Assembly (NCBI GenBank): GCA_024711065.1
Contig: JANJTN010000076.1
Span: 1 to 42,903 of the forward strand
DNA length: 42,903 nucleotides
Direction: 5' to 3'
DNA from: a bacterium
Lineage (GTDB): Bacteria > Bacteroidota > Ignavibacteria > Kapaibacteriales > Kapaibacteriaceae
The notes under the pieces are model-generated. The model searched no databases and was not told the DNA's origin. It worked only from the letters and a program-made list of their open reading frames with translations. Below, piece after piece: positions 14,776-42,903 of the stretch. Within the stretch, counting starts at the first letter, position 1; the number at the start of each line of letters is the position of its first letter. The position numbers were made by a program, and so were the translations under genes.

Positions 14776-14790
14776 CGATCTATGTGCATA

Positions 14791-14818
14791 CCCCATTCCC
14801 CATTCCCCATTCCCCATT
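14791..14818. repeat. Tandem heptamer, 4 x CCCCATT (AATGGGG)
   Basis: Four perfect 7-bp units in the 49 bp between the convergent Spy-like gene and nupC. The same heptamer recurs at 19542-19590 and 39270-39301. Confidence 0.95.
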
Positions 14819-14824
14819 CTCCGT

Positions 14825-19531: not shown

Positions 19532-19541
19532 GCCGATGGGT

Positions 19542-19590
19542 AATGGGGAATGGGGAATGGGGAATGGGGAATGGGGAATGGGGAATGGGC
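19542..19590. repeat. Tandem heptamer, 6 x AATGGGG plus a variant unit
   Basis: Six perfect AATGGGG units and a final AATGGGC, immediately before the CTA (reverse stop) of the small PHA-like gene and 10 bp upstream of the dnaE start. It occupies nearly all of that intergenic region. Confidence 0.95.
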
Positions 19591-27876: not shown

Positions 27877-29826
27877 ATGCAACCCCTTCGCCTGTGTTTT
27901 CTCTGGCATCAGCATCAACCGGATTATCGCACCGACACGGGCTTCTATCTGCCGTGGGTACGGATGCATGCCCTTAAGGATTATGCGGATCTGGTGGAGA
28001 TCATGGGGGACTATGATCTGCGGCACACGATCAACGTGGTGCCCTCGCTCATGGTCCAGCTCGACGCCTACCGGCAGGGTGCCACCGACCCAGTCCAACG
28101 ATTGTGTGCGCTAGCACCGGCTGCGATGACCGCTCAAGATCGTGTGGCACTGATGGCGTGGGTACGCACTCTGCAGCGCGAGACCATGGTTCGCCCCTTA
28201 CAGCGTCTTGATGAACTCTTTGACCATCCGGACCCGGCGTGGATGTCGGACCAGGAGGTGCTGGACGTCCAGGTCTTGCTGATGCTGGCCTGGACGGGAC
28301 CGATCGGTCGGCGACACCCAGTTGTAGCTGGCCTCCTGGAGCAGGGGAGTGGGTATACGATCACGCAACGGAACCACCTCATGGCCTGGCAGGAAGAACG
28401 ATTGGCAAGCGTGATCGACGTTCTGCGAACGTTCGCTGCTGAAACAGGGTCGGAGCTGAGCACCACGCCATTCCACCATCCGATCCTTCCGCTGTTGTGC
28501 ACTACAAACAGCGCTCTGGAGAGTCAGCCGGAACTCGAGGTCCCCGCGCCGCCCTTCCAGGAACCACACGATGCCGACTGGCACATCCGGGAGGCGATCG
28601 CCGACCATGCTCGACGTTTTCAGGCTGCTCCCAACGGCATGTGGCCGGCCGAGGGAAGTGTCAGCAACGAGGCCCTCGGACGATTCGCCGCCCGTGGAGT
28701 GCGATGGGTAGCCACCGATGAAGAGGTCCTTCGGCACACCCTGGGTGTTCAGAGCACGCCGACTGCACACCTACGGCCGTATACCGTACCCACCGATCAC
28801 GGTCCGATCGCGATCCTATTCCGCGACCACGGACTGAGCGATGCGATCGGGTTTGAGTATGCTTCGTGGGATCCGGAACACGCCGCCGAGAATTTCTGCA
28901 CGCGCCTGGAAGAGCGCCGTTCCGCGATCGTGCATACGTGGGGCGAGAGCGCGCTGGAGTGGGCCACGGTGTCGGTGATCCTGGATGGTGAGAATTGCTG
29001 GGAATTCTATCCCGGGAATGGCGAAGACTTTTTGCGAGCACTGTTTGGAAGGCTGCAAGGGGCTCCGGAGCGATACACAACGGTAACCTGCAGCCAAGCG
29101 ATCGATGTGGATCCGGCACACCTGCCGGAGCTGGACCACCTGGTGGCCGGCTCGTGGATCGGCGGAACCTTCGACATCTGGATCGGGTCTCCGGCAAAGA
29201 ATGCTGCGTGGTCGTTGCTTCGCGATCTGCGCGCACGGCTCAGAGCCGCCGAAGACCCTCCGCACCTCATGGAGCTCTGGTATCCGCTGGAAGCCAGCGA
29301 CTGGTTCTGGTGGTACGACGAGCGCCACCAAGCGCCGCACAAATCGGAATTCGATTCCGCTTTTCGGTCTCGATTGCGAACCGTATATACAGCCTTGGGG
29401 GAGGAACCCGGTATCGACCTGCAGAGATCTTTGTTGGAGTCCACCATGAACGTCGACCAGACCCTCGCCACGTTCCCGATCTCCTTCGGGAATAACACCA
29501 TGCACGATGCCGATGCGCTCGTGGAAAAGGTCACCGTTGAGACGGACGGCAATTGGCAGCGCATGACCTTTCACTTCCAGCGGGACTGTCGGGAAACCGA
29601 AGAAGTGATCGCCACGATCACCGATCGGCATGGGGCTGAACGGCGCGTTGGCATGATGTGCGATCAGGTGCTGTTCCAGTCCGGACGCCACGACGAAGGT
29701 TTTGAACGCCGCCGCCCTCGGCAGGTCTCGCTCTACCTGCATTCCACTACGCATTGGTTCGTTGGCGTCGAAGAACAGCGCGCCAGTGGTCGCACCGCGC
29801 GAGCGTCGGTAGAGATCCTGCTCTAA
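27877..29826 (+). CDS. Glycoside hydrolase family 57
   Basis: 649 aa. GH57 members are alpha-amylases, branching enzymes or 4-alpha-glucanotransferases. The N-terminus has the GH57 first motif HQHQPDYR. The nucleophile region is GMWPAEGSVS with E259, and the acid/base region is FRDHGLSDAIGF with D317. Later, ENCWEFYPGNGEDF and LEASDWFWWYDERH support the family, the latter resembling a C-terminal part of larger GH57 enzymes. The final ~150 residues form a beta-rich domain. No signal peptide, so probably cytosolic glycogen metabolism. It is convergent with the OmpA-like frame; the stops overlap by 3-4 nt. Confidence 0.9.
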   Translation: MQPLRLCFLWHQHQPDYRTDTGFYLPWVRMHALKDYADLVEIMGDYDLRHTINVVPSLMVQLDAYRQGATDPVQRLCALAPAAMTAQDRVALMAWVRTLQRETMVRPLQRLDELFDHPDPAWMSDQEVLDVQVLLMLAWTGPIGRRHPVVAGLLEQGSGYTITQRNHLMAWQEERLASVIDVLRTFAAETGSELSTTPFHHPILPLLCTTNSALESQPELEVPAPPFQEPHDADWHIREAIADHARRFQAAPNGMWPAEGSVSNEALGRFAARGVRWVATDEEVLRHTLGVQSTPTAHLRPYTVPTDHGPIAILFRDHGLSDAIGFEYASWDPEHAAENFCTRLEERRSAIVHTWGESALEWATVSVILDGENCWEFYPGNGEDFLRALFGRLQGAPERYTTVTCSQAIDVDPAHLPELDHLVAGSWIGGTFDIWIGSPAKNAAWSLLRDLRARLRAAEDPPHLMELWYPLEASDWFWWYDERHQAPHKSEFDSAFRSRLRTVYTALGEEPGIDLQRSLLESTMNVDQTLATFPISFGNNTMHDADALVEKVTVETDGNWQRMTFHFQRDCRETEEVIATITDRHGAERRVGMMCDQVLFQSGRHDEGFERRRPRQVSLYLHSTTHWFVGVEEQRASGRTARASVEILL

Positions 29827-31943
29827 GACTCCGTTCGGGCGTAGATGTCCACCCGTCGACTTTCGGGATGTTCGTCCACCGTAGTGTTCGGAACCTGCTC
29901 GACGCCGCGTCCGGCGCGGATGATCCGCTCGGGGGCGATGCCGATGCGACGTAGCTGTTCGGCCACGCGATCGGCCCGTTCACCGGAGAGAATGCGGTTC
30001 ACATTGTCCAGTCCAACGCGGTCGGCATAGCCATCCACAAAGAACCGCATGCGCTCGGCTTGATAGCGTGCGGCGAAGGCCAGGATGGTATCGATGGCCG
30101 CCGGCGACAGCTCGCTGCTGCCGCGTTCGAAGTACACGGATACCAACGGACGGTCCATGCGAAACAACCGCACCGTTGTGCGCAGTGGGACGGTTGAATC
30201 CAGATCGCGGACCGAGATCGTTTGCCGATGCGTCGTGTATCCGTCGGCATAGGTTTCCAGAACCTGACTGTGACCCTCAGGGATCACGATCACGGAGCGT
30301 CCCGTGGCCGTGTCTGATCGGATCAGTAGGTCGGCACAACCCGAGACATCGGCGGTGTCGTGCACGCTGATCCGGTAGGACGGGATCGGTTGATCGGTGA
30401 CGCCGTCAACAACATCGGCCTCATAGACGCACACCGGGTCCGGACGGAGTTCAAACGGCACGGTGACCTGATAGATACCTGGACGAGCCGCTTCGGCGTC
30501 CCAGGATGTCAGGAAGGCCTTGCTGCCATCCAGCGTAAGGCTTACAGAGGCTTCGTCTTCCTGCGTGTTCACGCACGGCCCCATCGAACGTGGCGGAGTC
30601 CAGCGTTGCCAATCGGCACCCGTGCGCTGGGTCCTGTACACATCCATCTTGCCGCGCCGGTCCTCGCGTCCGTTCGACACAAAGTACAACGTGCGCCCAT
30701 CGGCCGCCAGCCACGGCGAACCGTCGAGTCCGGCGGTATTCAGCGCTGATCCAAGAGAGACCGGTAACGACCAGCCTTGTCCGCAGGTCTGCATCACGTA
30801 CAGGTCCAGGTCTCCCAAGCCCCCTTCACGATCCAGCGCCAGGATCACGGTGCGGCCGTCCACCGACATCGTGCCGTAGTAGTTGGCACCGAGGTCGCCG
30901 ACCTCCAGCACCTCGATCGAGTCGAAGGGTATGGTTTGGGAAGCTCGATGCAGCAGAGCGAACCGTGGGGTCCGATCGATTCCATAGGATCCCACCACCA
31001 GGGCCGTGCAGAAGTCCGGTGTGAAGCCGAAGATCACATCCGGACGCGTCACCGAGGTGAAGGGGGCTTGGGTGGGTTCGCTCCAGGCAATGGCCGAGCG
31101 GGGTTCGGCGATCCACACATCATCCGGGTCCGTGATCCCGTCGGTATTCTGCGGATGCAGTTTGCGGTCCAGAAACAGCCGGCCATCCGGAGCCAGTACC
31201 GGCTGCGTGGTCGGCTGAAAGGCATTGATCGATTCGGGTAGCCGCGTCTTGTCGCAGGTCAGAATCGTTTGCGCAGTCACAGCCGCGCTGGTGGCCGCCA
31301 AGGTGATCAAGAGCAGGCCGAGCTGCAGATCGTCGATCACCGAGCGAACCACCGACCAGGCATATCCACGATACTGCAGGAAGCGCACCAGCTTGGTCCG
31401 ACGCTCATCCGGATCGGACTCGCGAAGGGTCCGCAGCTTTTTTTCGGCAACGCGTCGGGCGGCTTCCTGTACGGTAGCGTCGTCCATCACGGCTGTGATC
31501 TGTTCAGCGATCACATCGTCGGCCACGCCCTTGGCTTTGAGCTTCCGGCGCAGGTCGGCAGGGGAGAGTGGTTTGCGTTCGTTGGCGGCTGCGACGAAGC
31601 GTTCGACGTACGAACGATCGTCGACCACCCGCAGTTCGCGCAGCCATTCCAGGACCTCGATGGCCTCTTCCGGCGTGGCTTCGAGCTTGAGCAGGTGGTC
31701 GTGCATCTGCCGCTCGGTGCGGGGCTTGTACATGGCAAAGCGGTACGACTTCTGACGCAGCACCATTCGGCGGTCTTCCGTGCGCAGGCGGCCTTCCAAC
31801 TCGGGCGTCATCTCCAGCCCCTTGCGCAACCCCAGTGCCAGAGCCACATCGATCGGGCACGCGGCGAAGAACTCCTCGTCTACGAACACCGAACACCGGC
31901 CGCCGTTCTTGACGTTGCGTCGGATCGTGGTGATCACTCCCAT
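29823..31943 (-). CDS. RecX domain joined in frame to an OmpA-like outer-membrane protein
   Basis: One uninterrupted 706-aa frame. Residues 1-205 are RecX, the RecA inhibitor (three-helix repeats: SYRFAMYKPRTERQMHDHL; RSYVERFVAAANERKPLSP), placed 12 bp after recA as usual. The RecX part reaches its normal end (RGYAWSVVRSVIDDL). The frame then continues without a stop into LQLGLLLITLAATSAAVTAQ, which looks like a signal peptide core without its basic start. After it come PD40-like propeller repeats (LAADGRTLYFVSNGRED; LTLDGSKAFLTSW), a carboxypeptidase-like beta domain and an OmpA peptidoglycan-binding domain (YFERGSSELSP; DGYADRVGLDNVNRILSGERADRV). GTG codons at 31352 and 31340 could start the second part separately. 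Real fusion, nested gene or sequencing error cannot be told apart here. Confidence 0.85.
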   Translation of the reverse strand: MGVITTIRRNVKNGGRCSVFVDEEFFAACPIDVALALGLRKGLEMTPELEGRLRTEDRRMVLRQKSYRFAMYKPRTERQMHDHLLKLEATPEEAIEVLEWLRELRVVDDRSYVERFVAAANERKPLSPADLRRKLKAKGVADDVIAEQITAVMDDATVQEAARRVAEKKLRTLRESDPDERRTKLVRFLQYRGYAWSVVRSVIDDLQLGLLLITLAATSAAVTAQTILTCDKTRLPESINAFQPTTQPVLAPDGRLFLDRKLHPQNTDGITDPDDVWIAEPRSAIAWSEPTQAPFTSVTRPDVIFGFTPDFCTALVVGSYGIDRTPRFALLHRASQTIPFDSIEVLEVGDLGANYYGTMSVDGRTVILALDREGGLGDLDLYVMQTCGQGWSLPVSLGSALNTAGLDGSPWLAADGRTLYFVSNGREDRRGKMDVYRTQRTGADWQRWTPPRSMGPCVNTQEDEASVSLTLDGSKAFLTSWDAEAARPGIYQVTVPFELRPDPVCVYEADVVDGVTDQPIPSYRISVHDTADVSGCADLLIRSDTATGRSVIVIPEGHSQVLETYADGYTTHRQTISVRDLDSTVPLRTTVRLFRMDRPLVSVYFERGSSELSPAAIDTILAFAARYQAERMRFFVDGYADRVGLDNVNRILSGERADRVAEQLRRIGIAPERIIRAGRGVEQVPNTTVDEHPESRRVDIYARTES

Positions 31944-39263: not shown

Positions 39264-39269
39264 CGGGGG

Positions 39270-39301
39270 AATGGGGAATGGGGAATGGGGAATGGGGAAT
39301 G
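39270..39301. repeat. Tandem heptamer, 4 x AATGGGG
   Basis: Four perfect AATGGGG units plus AATG, beginning 7 bp after the kgd stop. Third copy of the repeat family found at 14791 and 19542. Confidence 0.95.
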
Positions 39302-39427
39302 TCTCTGACTTACAGTCCCGTCTTCCAGTCCCGTCTTCCAGTCCCGTCTTACCGTCCCTGACTTACCGTCGCTGACTTCCAGTCGCTGACTTACCGTCCC
39401 TGACTTACAGTCGCGTCTTACCGCCCC
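39301..39427. repeat. Degenerate 13-14 bp tandem repeat (CTGACTTACCGTC / CGTCTTCCAGTCC)
   Basis: About nine diverged units mixing CTGACTTACAGTC, CTGACTTACCGTC, CGTCTTCCAGTCC and CGTCTTACCGTCC. It fills the gap between the AATGGGG repeat and the stop of the next gene. The CGTCTTACCGTCC form matches the unit at 42301-42365. Confidence 0.85.
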
Positions 39428-40348
39428 TTACCGACTGCCGCGCTTGACCTCTGTTGGGCGCAGCTCGATGGAGGCCATCGGTGCGGTGTTGATCAGCTCG
39501 GCGGACGAGCGATAGGTGAGCTTCCGACCGGCGCTGGTGTACTTGTAGCACACCTCGGACACCCAGCGGATCAAGCCGGTGCGCATGTCGCGCACCATTT
39601 GGGACTCGCTATAAAAGGCGGCGCCTAGAGCATTGCGCCGCTCGTTGCGAAGGGTCATATATCCCAACGACTCACGCCCGACAGTTCTCACAGAGTCCAG
39701 GATCGAAACGCGGTAGAGGGTGTCGTACAACACCTTGTGCTCGACCGTGTTGGAAGTACCGTAGTTCGTGGGAACGTACACGGCTCGAGACGGGAAGGTG
39801 ATCGTGTCGATGTACTCCCGCTCGATCTCCAGGTCTTGCGCCTTGGGCACACTGGGCATGAGCAACTGGAGCATGTACGGGCTATTACCGGAAACGGCGG
39901 CCATCATGGATTCCGACGTGATCTTCCGGAACTGCGTCGAGACCTCGTTCACACCGGAGGCCGACGAATCGCCGCTGTCGCCATGGGACAGATTGCCATG
40001 GGCATCCAGCACCAACTCCAGGTAGCCGGCCTTGGAGTACAGCTTGTGGCCCGCGAAGTCGACTGACCCATACGGGCGGGTCTGAATGTTATCCTGATAC
40101 TGGAATGCCGTATCCGAAGCGATCGAAAAGCGGCAGATCGTCTGGTCGAACTCGTCGCGACCCACCACGTCCAGCGTAAGGAGGGTATGCAGACGCACCA
40201 CCTTGGAGGGGAAGGGGATCTGGTCGGTCTGGATACGATACTCGTACGACATCCCGATCGGAAGGTCGTACTTCAGCGTATGCACTTTATCGGCCATCGG
40301 GGCCGAAGGCAGTAGAACCAATGCTGCGATGATCGCAAGAACCGACAT
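39428..40348 (-). CDS. Exported protein of unknown function
   Basis: 306 aa from the ATG at 40348, with AGGGAG as a good ribosome site about 6 nt upstream and a signal peptide (MSVLAIIAALVLLPSAPMA). The mature part is beta-rich (YDLPIGMSYEYRIQTDQ; TLLTLDVVGRDEF; YLELVLDAHGN) with a Ser/Asp-rich stretch SHGDSGDSSASG. It resembles the many secreted Bacteroidota proteins with a lipocalin- or DUF-like beta fold, but I do not recognise it. Two bp separate its stop from the repeat at 39301. Confidence 0.65.
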   Translation of the reverse strand: MSVLAIIAALVLLPSAPMADKVHTLKYDLPIGMSYEYRIQTDQIPFPSKVVRLHTLLTLDVVGRDEFDQTICRFSIASDTAFQYQDNIQTRPYGSVDFAGHKLYSKAGYLELVLDAHGNLSHGDSGDSSASGVNEVSTQFRKITSESMMAAVSGNSPYMLQLLMPSVPKAQDLEIEREYIDTITFPSRAVYVPTNYGTSNTVEHKVLYDTLYRVSILDSVRTVGRESLGYMTLRNERRNALGAAFYSESQMVRDMRTGLIRWVSEVCYKYTSAGRKLTYRSSAELINTAPMASIELRPTEVKRGSR

Positions 40349-40466
40349 GCTCTCCCTTGTAGTATGCGGCACAAAGTTGGGAGCATATCGGACGCGGCGC
40401 AATAAGCACTTGTTACTACTGGATTTACGTTACGTAGAATTGCCCTACGACACGGCGCCTGACTAC

Positions 40467-42248
40467 CTACTGCTCGTCCTTGGCTACGACCATGGAGCGG
40501 ATCCGAAAGCTCGCAAGGCGGTCGAGGTCGAACCGAGCATTACCCTCCAGGAGCACGACCGACATCGCCCCCTTCACCGAGGTCACCGTGCGATGGCGCA
40601 GTCCTGATTCCATGTTTTCGCGGCGTTTGAGGACGTTTAACTGGTGCCGCAGGTCGATCGTGTCCATCGCGGCAGTTCCGCTCAGGTCATCCACGATCAG
40701 CAACACGCCGATCTCACCTGATTGATGTAAGGTATATCTACCAATGGAGATAGCGCCGTCTGTGCTATTGAGCATCGCAACATTGGCCGTACCATTCAGG
40801 CTCACACCTTCTCCACCGGTCAGGGGGACCGATAACGTTGTGGTGGTCAGGCGTGACCTACGGGTGGACTCTCGTGTTGCTGTCTGCCAAGAGTGACCGG
40901 TCGCGGCCGACGCAAGGGCCGTTACCACGCCACCTTTGAGGTCGGCCCGGTCTACATCGATCCCGTGCGAACGCAGGATGCGGTAAGCAGCGGCCGTGTC
41001 GATCCCGCTGATCACGCCCAGGTGTTCGTACGCTGTCTGGCGAAGGCTATCGGGCAGACGCTGAAAGGCGAGTGTGTCGATCGCAGCGTCAGCGCTCTGG
41101 ATCACCCGGTGTTCGAGCAGGAAGCTCTCGAAGCGATGTTCCTGATCACGAATGGTGACCGATGCACTGCTGAGCGGACCGAAGCTGGTAACGGCAGCCA
41201 ACGCCATCAGTGCCAGAGGGATGATCCGAAGGTCTGCTTTACGTGATGCAGAAAGGGTGATCACCACCGTTACCAAGAATGCCGTCAGTGTAGCCACAGC
41301 AAATCGAGGGGGAGTGATCCCGTACTCGATGATCCGAACGCTGATCGCAACGATGAGCATCACGGTCACGGGGATCAACGCAACGCCGAGCCAGCGAACG
41401 TAGAACGCCACAGCCGGATGGTTGGCATCGGATCGCAACGGCCACCCCAGCACCCATGCAAGGAGTCCGGCTACGCCCAGCGTAAGGATATAGGCCGAGA
41501 CCGCACCGTCGAGCTCCCGGAAGAACAGCACGTCGAACCCGTACACATAGAGGATCACCAGAAAGACGCCTACCAAAGGGATGAGCACGAACTGCACGAA
41601 CCAGCGCAGCGCTGTTGGTACCTCCACGTCGTTGGACTCGCGCTCTTCCCGGGTGAGAATGCCCGACAGAATGAACAGGGTATTGAACAGGCCAACGATC
41701 ACGATCGGAACGTCCATATAATACGAGTCACGGATCTCCACATCGAACAGCACATGGATCGCACCCATCGCCAAGAGGAGCCCGCCACTCAGAACGCCGG
41801 TGAACACGCCAGCCAGCGCCGTTCGCAGAAACAGCGATCGATTGAAGTTCCAGCAGGCTAGTGCCCCCGAACGGAAGGGAGCCACGGCTACGGCCGCGTG
41901 CGTGGCGATCAGCAACGAAGCGATCTGCACCGGCGCGGCTTCGCTGTGCCGGTCCACGAACAACGTGATCGCCGTGCCAATCACCAGCACCACACCATGC
42001 AACAGAAGAGCTACGGGACCGGAGGTGCTGCCGCTCTCTCGGGCCACACTAACGGCCACGTGGAGGGACAGCATGGCGATACAGGCCAGGAGGGCCGTTT
42101 CGATCAGCGGAGGTACCGGCCCGTCATAATGGCTTGACACGACAGCTAGAATAGTACCTGTAACGGCTGTGGCGATCTCGAATGGGAATCGGCGCGAAGT
42201 GGCAAGTGCAGCATTCCCTAGTGTGCGGATCGAGAACGATGTTTCCAT
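40467..42248 (-). CDS. DUF4153 multi-pass membrane protein
   Basis: 593 aa. CGGAGGGCT upstream is a clear ribosome site for the ATG at 42248. About eleven hydrophobic helices fill residues 20-390, including RSLFLRTALAGVFTGVLSGGL and FVQFVLIPLVGVFLVILYVYGFD, the pattern of DUF4153 proteins common in Bacteroidota. The C-terminal ~190 residues are soluble. No function has been established. A 118 bp gap separates it from the downstream secreted protein. Confidence 0.75.
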   Translation of the reverse strand: METSFSIRTLGNAALATSRRFPFEIATAVTGTILAVVSSHYDGPVPPLIETALLACIAMLSLHVAVSVARESGSTSGPVALLLHGVVLVIGTAITLFVDRHSEAAPVQIASLLIATHAAVAVAPFRSGALACWNFNRSLFLRTALAGVFTGVLSGGLLLAMGAIHVLFDVEIRDSYYMDVPIVIVGLFNTLFILSGILTREERESNDVEVPTALRWFVQFVLIPLVGVFLVILYVYGFDVLFFRELDGAVSAYILTLGVAGLLAWVLGWPLRSDANHPAVAFYVRWLGVALIPVTVMLIVAISVRIIEYGITPPRFAVATLTAFLVTVVITLSASRKADLRIIPLALMALAAVTSFGPLSSASVTIRDQEHRFESFLLEHRVIQSADAAIDTLAFQRLPDSLRQTAYEHLGVISGIDTAAAYRILRSHGIDVDRADLKGGVVTALASAATGHSWQTATRESTRRSRLTTTTLSVPLTGGEGVSLNGTANVAMLNSTDGAISIGRYTLHQSGEIGVLLIVDDLSGTAAMDTIDLRHQLNVLKRRENMESGLRHRTVTSVKGAMSVVLLEGNARFDLDRLASFRIRSMVVAKDEQ

Positions 42249-42300
42249 ACAGCCCTCCGGTGGATGTGTTCGATCTGTACTGTGTATTTATACTCCATCT

Positions 42301-42365
42301 TACCGTCCCGTCCTACCGTCCCGTCTTACCGTCCCGTCCTACCGTCCCGTCCTACCGTCCCGTCC
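42301..42365. repeat. Tandem 13-mer, 5 x TACCGTCCCGTC(C/T)
   Basis: Five units, four ending C and one ending T, running into the 3' end of the Ppx/GppA gene. Part of the same family as 39301-39427. Confidence 0.95.
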
Positions 42366-42903
42366 TACTGTGGCGGACATCATCGCTCCGTAGCGAAGTC
42401 CACGCGTACTCACGGTGCACGAGGCAACGTGGAGGTGACGAAGGATCTCCGACAGAATCAGTGTACCGGCCGGAAGTACGTCCGCTCTTCGTGGGTGAAT
42501 ACCGGGTAGTTGCGCCAACTCGTCCAGACGCATGTAGCGGAGCCGCTCGGCCCAAGTCGACACGGTTCCACTGGACAGCACGGTCCCTTCGATCACAGCC
42601 TGATGGGCATCGGTCACGCCCAGCTCCAGTGCGGCCAGCGCCACGGGCGTACCGGCCACGGCCACCACATCGGGCACCGATGGCAGTGTTGAAAGGGGCT
42701 CACGGAAGGCCGCGTCGATCAAGGATGTGGCGGCGGCATAGACCTCGTCCGAGATCGGACGAACGCGAAACAGGTGATCGGTTAGCCGCACCACGCCTAC
42801 ATCCACACTCACGGCGTGGGAGAACGTCCCGTCCTGTCCGTACGAACACTCCGTACTGCCGCCACCGATATCGATCACGATCACCGGCCCGGCATGATGA
42901 GCC
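42339..42903 (-). CDS. Ppx/GppA exopolyphosphatase-family protein, C-terminal part
   Basis: 188 codons; the N-terminus lies beyond the window. It opens at the phosphate-binding motif VIVIDIGGGSTECSYG. The ASKHA second half follows: VDVGVVRLTDHL, VVAVAGTPVALAAL and PAGTLILSEILRHL, ending GLRYGAMM as usual for the short Ppx/GppA form. It hydrolyses polyphosphate or pppGpp. The last residues GRDGRTGR and the TAG stop are read from the 13-bp repeat at 42301-42365, so the original C-terminus was replaced or extended. Confidence 0.85.
   Translation of the reverse strand, partial: AHHAGPVIVIDIGGGSTECSYGQDGTFSHAVSVDVGVVRLTDHLFRVRPISDEVYAAATSLIDAAFREPLSTLPSVPDVVAVAGTPVALAALELGVTDAHQAVIEGTVLSSGTVSTWAERLRYMRLDELAQLPGIHPRRADVLPAGTLILSEILRHLHVASCTVSTRGLRYGAMMSATVGRDGRTGR

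Follow-up and report, generated by a model that had tools for sequence, protein, structure and literature searches.

The stretch of DNA analysed here (the window) is one entire contig of 42,903 nucleotides, which ends inside a Ppx/GppA phosphatase gene on the minus strand. Only the 3' part of this gene is present, spanning 42339–42902, the 5' end being cut by the contig end. Its product of 187 residues matches the Pfam profile PF02541 over residues 3–176 with an E-value of 7.6e-29 and 101.5 bits against a curated cut-off of 27, and the truncated gene enters the profile at position 110 of 285. The exopolyphosphatase structures 1t6c and 1t6d (PDB) match the product over residues 5–178. Downstream, on the same strand, lies a gene for a DUF4153 protein (40467–42248; Pfam PF13687, E-value 6.1e-13). 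The spacer from the ppx stop to this next gene measures 90 nt (42249–42338, minus strand), of which 38 nt belong to a tandem array that crosses the end of ppx.

This focal array (42301–42368) comprises 5.2 copies of TACCGTCCCGTCC, which reads as GGACGGGACGGTA on the minus strand, and is reported by TRF with a period of 13, 96% matches and a score of 129. It is real and far above chance: 50 second-order Markov copies of the window reached at most 61. It extends three bases beyond the extent given in the preliminary description and contains one variant unit, in which T replaces C as the last base (at 42326). That description had proposed that a repeat across the gene end supplies both the last residues and the stop codon of ppx, and translation bears this out, with a tail of nine residues rather than eight. 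The tail VGRDGRTGR is encoded at 42342–42368 on the minus strand and is followed by the TAG stop (42339–42341), which also comes from an array unit.

How does this tail relate to the rest of the protein? The conserved domain stops at residue 176–178, directly before the array. Alignments to 29 homologous loci from related genomes agree with this, reaching query residue 172–183 and mostly 174–179. Beyond the aligned part the homologues continue for 0–18 residues with unrelated tails, none of which, across these 29 loci, resembles GRDGRTGR; a tail of this kind in repeat-less homologues would have spoken against an origin from the array. The sequences thus indicate that VGRDGRTGR derives from the array and lies outside the conserved part of the protein.

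It is tempting to infer from a unit of 13 bp that every gain or loss of a unit changes the C-terminus, and the preliminary description had drawn this conclusion. On the minus strand, a TAG arises where one GGACGGGACGGTA unit joins the next, and since 13 mod 3 equals 1 the frame moves by one per unit. Because each sense-strand unit brings a TAG and 13 is not divisible by three, a stop is reached in every frame within three units (39 nt). The ppx stop comes after 27 nt of array sequence, and units past about the second are therefore untranslated. When single-unit changes were simulated, the protein remained identical in all 56 deletions and in all 56 duplications. Gains of one to five units and losses of one to three units kept the length at 187 residues, with one residue swapped in two removals at the proximal side of the array. 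Only the removal of four units, which leaves about one, altered the length and gave a different protein of 210 residues. The array buffers the gene end, and later changes in unit number do not show in the protein. Even when its length is not divisible by three, a unit that contains a stop codon gives no variable tail.

A switch in which slippage shifts the reading frame and produces alternative C-termini was suggested by an array that crosses the stop with units not divisible by three. The simulation leads us to reject this idea of variable protein tails, which we regard as hardly credible: a phase-variable switch is one in which unit number alters the product, here none of the 112 single-unit events does so, length responds only once about one unit is left, and the tail lies outside the conserved domain.

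The junction itself can be compared with that of relatives. The order ppx followed by the DUF4153 gene is common to six of them (L007, L008, L009, L012, L016 and L017), in which 1–31 nt separate the ppx stop from the nearest downstream candidate starts and TRF finds no array near the ppx stop. As these six junctions are shorter and free of arrays, the focal array looks like a lineage-specific addition to a tighter junction, as far as sequence comparison can tell. Among six genomes of the genus, the focal array pattern is present only in the genome that holds the window (hereafter the host genome), the other five giving no matches to the unit. In two genomes from another genus of the same family (L018, near position 2022, and L023, near 2028), inspection by eye showed that the TGA stop of ppx starts a short run of TGAGGTG heptamers, and something similar may therefore occur elsewhere in the family.

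The focal array has sister arrays in the window. At 39266–39442, TRF reports GGGGAAT heptamers followed by a 13/14-mer array of the TTACCGTCCC type, like the focal array, and this compound array overlaps the end of a minus-strand gene (39428–40402). It fills the gap between a convergent 2-oxoglutarate dehydrogenase-type gene and this gene for 324 residues, the last of which, RGSR, come from the array. GGGGAAT/CCATTCC heptamer arrays at 14787–14819, 19536–19589 and 39266–39301 carry runs of four G on one strand; the one at 19536 has the stop codon of an upstream minus-strand gene on one side and the beginning of the DNA polymerase III alpha gene on the other.

To what extent is this a property of the whole genome? 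A first sample, consisting of the window and 60 further stretches of the host genome (638,143 bases), contained 103 arrays with a TRF score of at least 60, compared with one in a first-order Markov control of that sample. A hold-out of 40 fresh stretches (320,074 bases) contained 54, which together gives 157 arrays in 958 kb. The same-genus genome G004 had four in 240,000 bases. Several unit families are represented among the 157 arrays, where one array may be counted in more than one family: CCATTCC/GGGGAAT (25), GCTGTT types (24), TAGCGTY (12), TGCACTRA (10) and TTACCGTCCC types (9), plus others. Of 60 genomes searched, the host genome alone yielded the TAGCGTY pattern, and the same holds for the 14-mer pattern.

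These arrays are not placed at random with respect to genes. A bias towards gene 3' ends emerged in the first sample, and the hold-out served to test it; as genes were called with a home-made dicodon caller, the exact counts are limited, while the arithmetic within arrays is not affected. Among arrays that are not internal to genes, a 3' end is no more than 20 bp away for 40 of 76 in the first sample and for 19 of 37 in the hold-out. Random noncoding placement predicts 9.7 and 3.4, placement within each array's own gap 25.3 and 12.8, and neither null reached the observed counts of either sample in 300 trials. At 5' ends, the counts of 15 and 9 compare with 11.0 and 3.5 for noncoding and 16.8 and 8.0 for own-gap placement. 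The own-gap null shows that the raw 3' excess owes much to arrays filling short gaps. Only in the hold-out did overlap with the stop codon exceed this null (13 against 8.7, reached in 7 of 300 trials); in the first sample it did not (18 against 16.9, reached in 124 of 300).

A stricter analysis considered 77 of the 110 non-internal arrays, the other 33 being dropped because they lacked a gene on each side. In tandem gaps, arrays were over-represented up to 10 nt from the upstream stop (p 0.0005–0.0025), and the excess within 3 nt was not significant (p 0.10–0.22). In convergent gaps, where 2.4 of 23 arrays would be expected no more than 3 nt from a stop, 8 were found there, which speaks against pure tolerance. 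Relatives offered a weak test at a lower score cut-off of 50, with a 3' end no more than 20 bp away for 5 of 7 non-internal arrays in G012, 0 of 7 in G010 and 1 of 7 in G004.

The stop codon inside the unit appears to matter for which arrays cross a gene end. With 14 arrays set aside because they had no unit of up to 16 bp, 21 of 57 arrays with a unit stop reach at least 3 nt into a gene end, compared with 1 of 39 without (Fisher p 4e-5). This comparison is in part circular, since any array that spans a stop necessarily contains one. The counts fit the view that only self-terminating repeats can straddle a gene end. Simulation of the 31 arrays that overlap gene 3' ends gave a picture similar to the focal case: 4478 of 4656 single-unit events, which are positions within arrays and not independent events, left the protein identical, 127 altered its length (99 deletions and 28 duplications) and 51 its sequence only. 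An array whose units carry a stop and have a length not divisible by three terminates translation in all frames and so protects the gene from the array's own instability.

Cyanobacterial short tandemly repeated repetitive (STRR) heptamers also form dispersed arrays between genes, like those described here. Another parallel may be drawn to the GGGAATC and GGGGA(C/T)T heptamers of Xanthomonas and Nostoc, which, according to the sections of the study considered here, occur genome-wide and mostly between genes, concentrate within 50 bp of stop codons with some overlapping them, and vary in unit number (Rehm et al. 2015, PMC4692102). The host genome likewise holds many noncoding arrays biased to near stop codons, and the GGGGAAT arrays of the window are of the same G-rich type as these heptamers, as far as those sections describe them. 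In contrast to what they report, it combines unrelated unit families of 6, 7, 8, 13 and 14 bp. Judged by its sequence, the focal 13-mer, whose longest G run is three, would not belong to the GGGNATC-type G-quadruplex heptamers as these are defined there, whereas runs of four G occur in other arrays of the genome (GGGGAAT). The part of a second study used here describes TAACTGA direct repeats in Beggiatoaceae, Cyanobacteria and some Bacteroidetes, which hold stops in all three frames, so that their reach into a gene end is limited to 18 nt; 13 sets overlap the stop of the upstream gene (MacGregor 2015, PMC4679880). The focal array shares this all-frame-stop logic, and the logic explains the present case. 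The units differ, and in that part of the study TAACTGA repeats sit mainly just upstream of start codons, whereas the arrays of the host genome sit mainly at stop codons. Both the all-frame-stop argument and heptamer arrays near stop codons are thus already published, and the present case is a further example; the genome as a whole adds a repeat-rich case to the bias towards stop codons that has been published for heptamer arrays in bacteria.

The position of the arrays could reflect a function. They might be selected beside stop codons as a translational backstop, an mRNA 3'-end element or a transcription-termination element, and the strong 3'-end bias, replicated in the hold-out, speaks for such an element. 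Units with stops on both strands are also frequent in the first sample (20 of 66 against 6.8 for shuffled units), and in Xanthomonas transcripts are reported, in the sections considered here, from transcriptome data to start or stop more often at the G-quadruplex heptamer than at control repeats (PMC4692102). At the focal junction, the region 42150–42480 contains no terminator-like site, no promoter-like feature was found between ppx and the DUF4153 gene, RNA folding at the array is ordinary (z -0.46) and Rfam gives no match. We have therefore rejected a terminator or structured RNA at this site, and the units of many stop-adjacent arrays, such as CCATTCC, carry no stop codon, which leaves a functional 3' element unlikely.

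Alternatively, arrays could be actively seeded or inserted at stop codons, with the stop joining the first unit. In 58 arrays the near edge is at most 20 nt beyond a stop, and 30 of these, from several unrelated unit families, contain that stop in whole or in part; the excess in convergent gaps points in the same direction. Tandem gaps, however, lack a significant excess within 3 nt, the finding that stop-bearing units overlap stops is in part circular, and inspection by eye revealed no target-site duplication or carrier element in the listed junctions, so that we consider such seeding quite improbable. A broader and similarly doubtful proposal would have the unrelated-unit arrays of this lineage born at or targeted to stop codons, with units that stop both strands favoured, as genome-wide translation backstops in all frames. 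Were it true, such backstops would let repeats sit safely on gene ends.

The reading we prefer, with a probability of roughly 85%, is that the focal array is a copy of a lineage-specific, dispersed class of self-terminating arrays at the junction of ppx and the DUF4153 gene, and that the tail is a tolerated by-product. The class would consist of short tandem arrays with units of about 6–14 bp, one of which landed on or grew at this junction. Translation of ppx enters the array for 27 nt and halts at the first in-frame TAG, in an array predicted to end translation in any frame within three units. As each unit holds a stop and has a length not divisible by three, the protein would be unaffected by units gained or lost later. 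The tail would be tolerated in a family whose C-termini vary freely. Growth of the arrays probably proceeds by slippage or recombination and their spread by copying, and tolerance at gene 3' ends may render them nearly neutral.

Two further observations concern the assembly and the window. For 25 of the 157 arrays, the end of the sampled stretch, often a contig end, is no more than 120 bases away (loci L041, L047, L054, L056, L159 and others), and arrays may thus break the assembly. Elsewhere in the window, an open frame at 29823–31943 on the minus strand matches RecX over residues 1–208 and an OmpA/PorE-like protein over about 354–706, and could represent a RecX-OmpA fusion or a lost stop codon.
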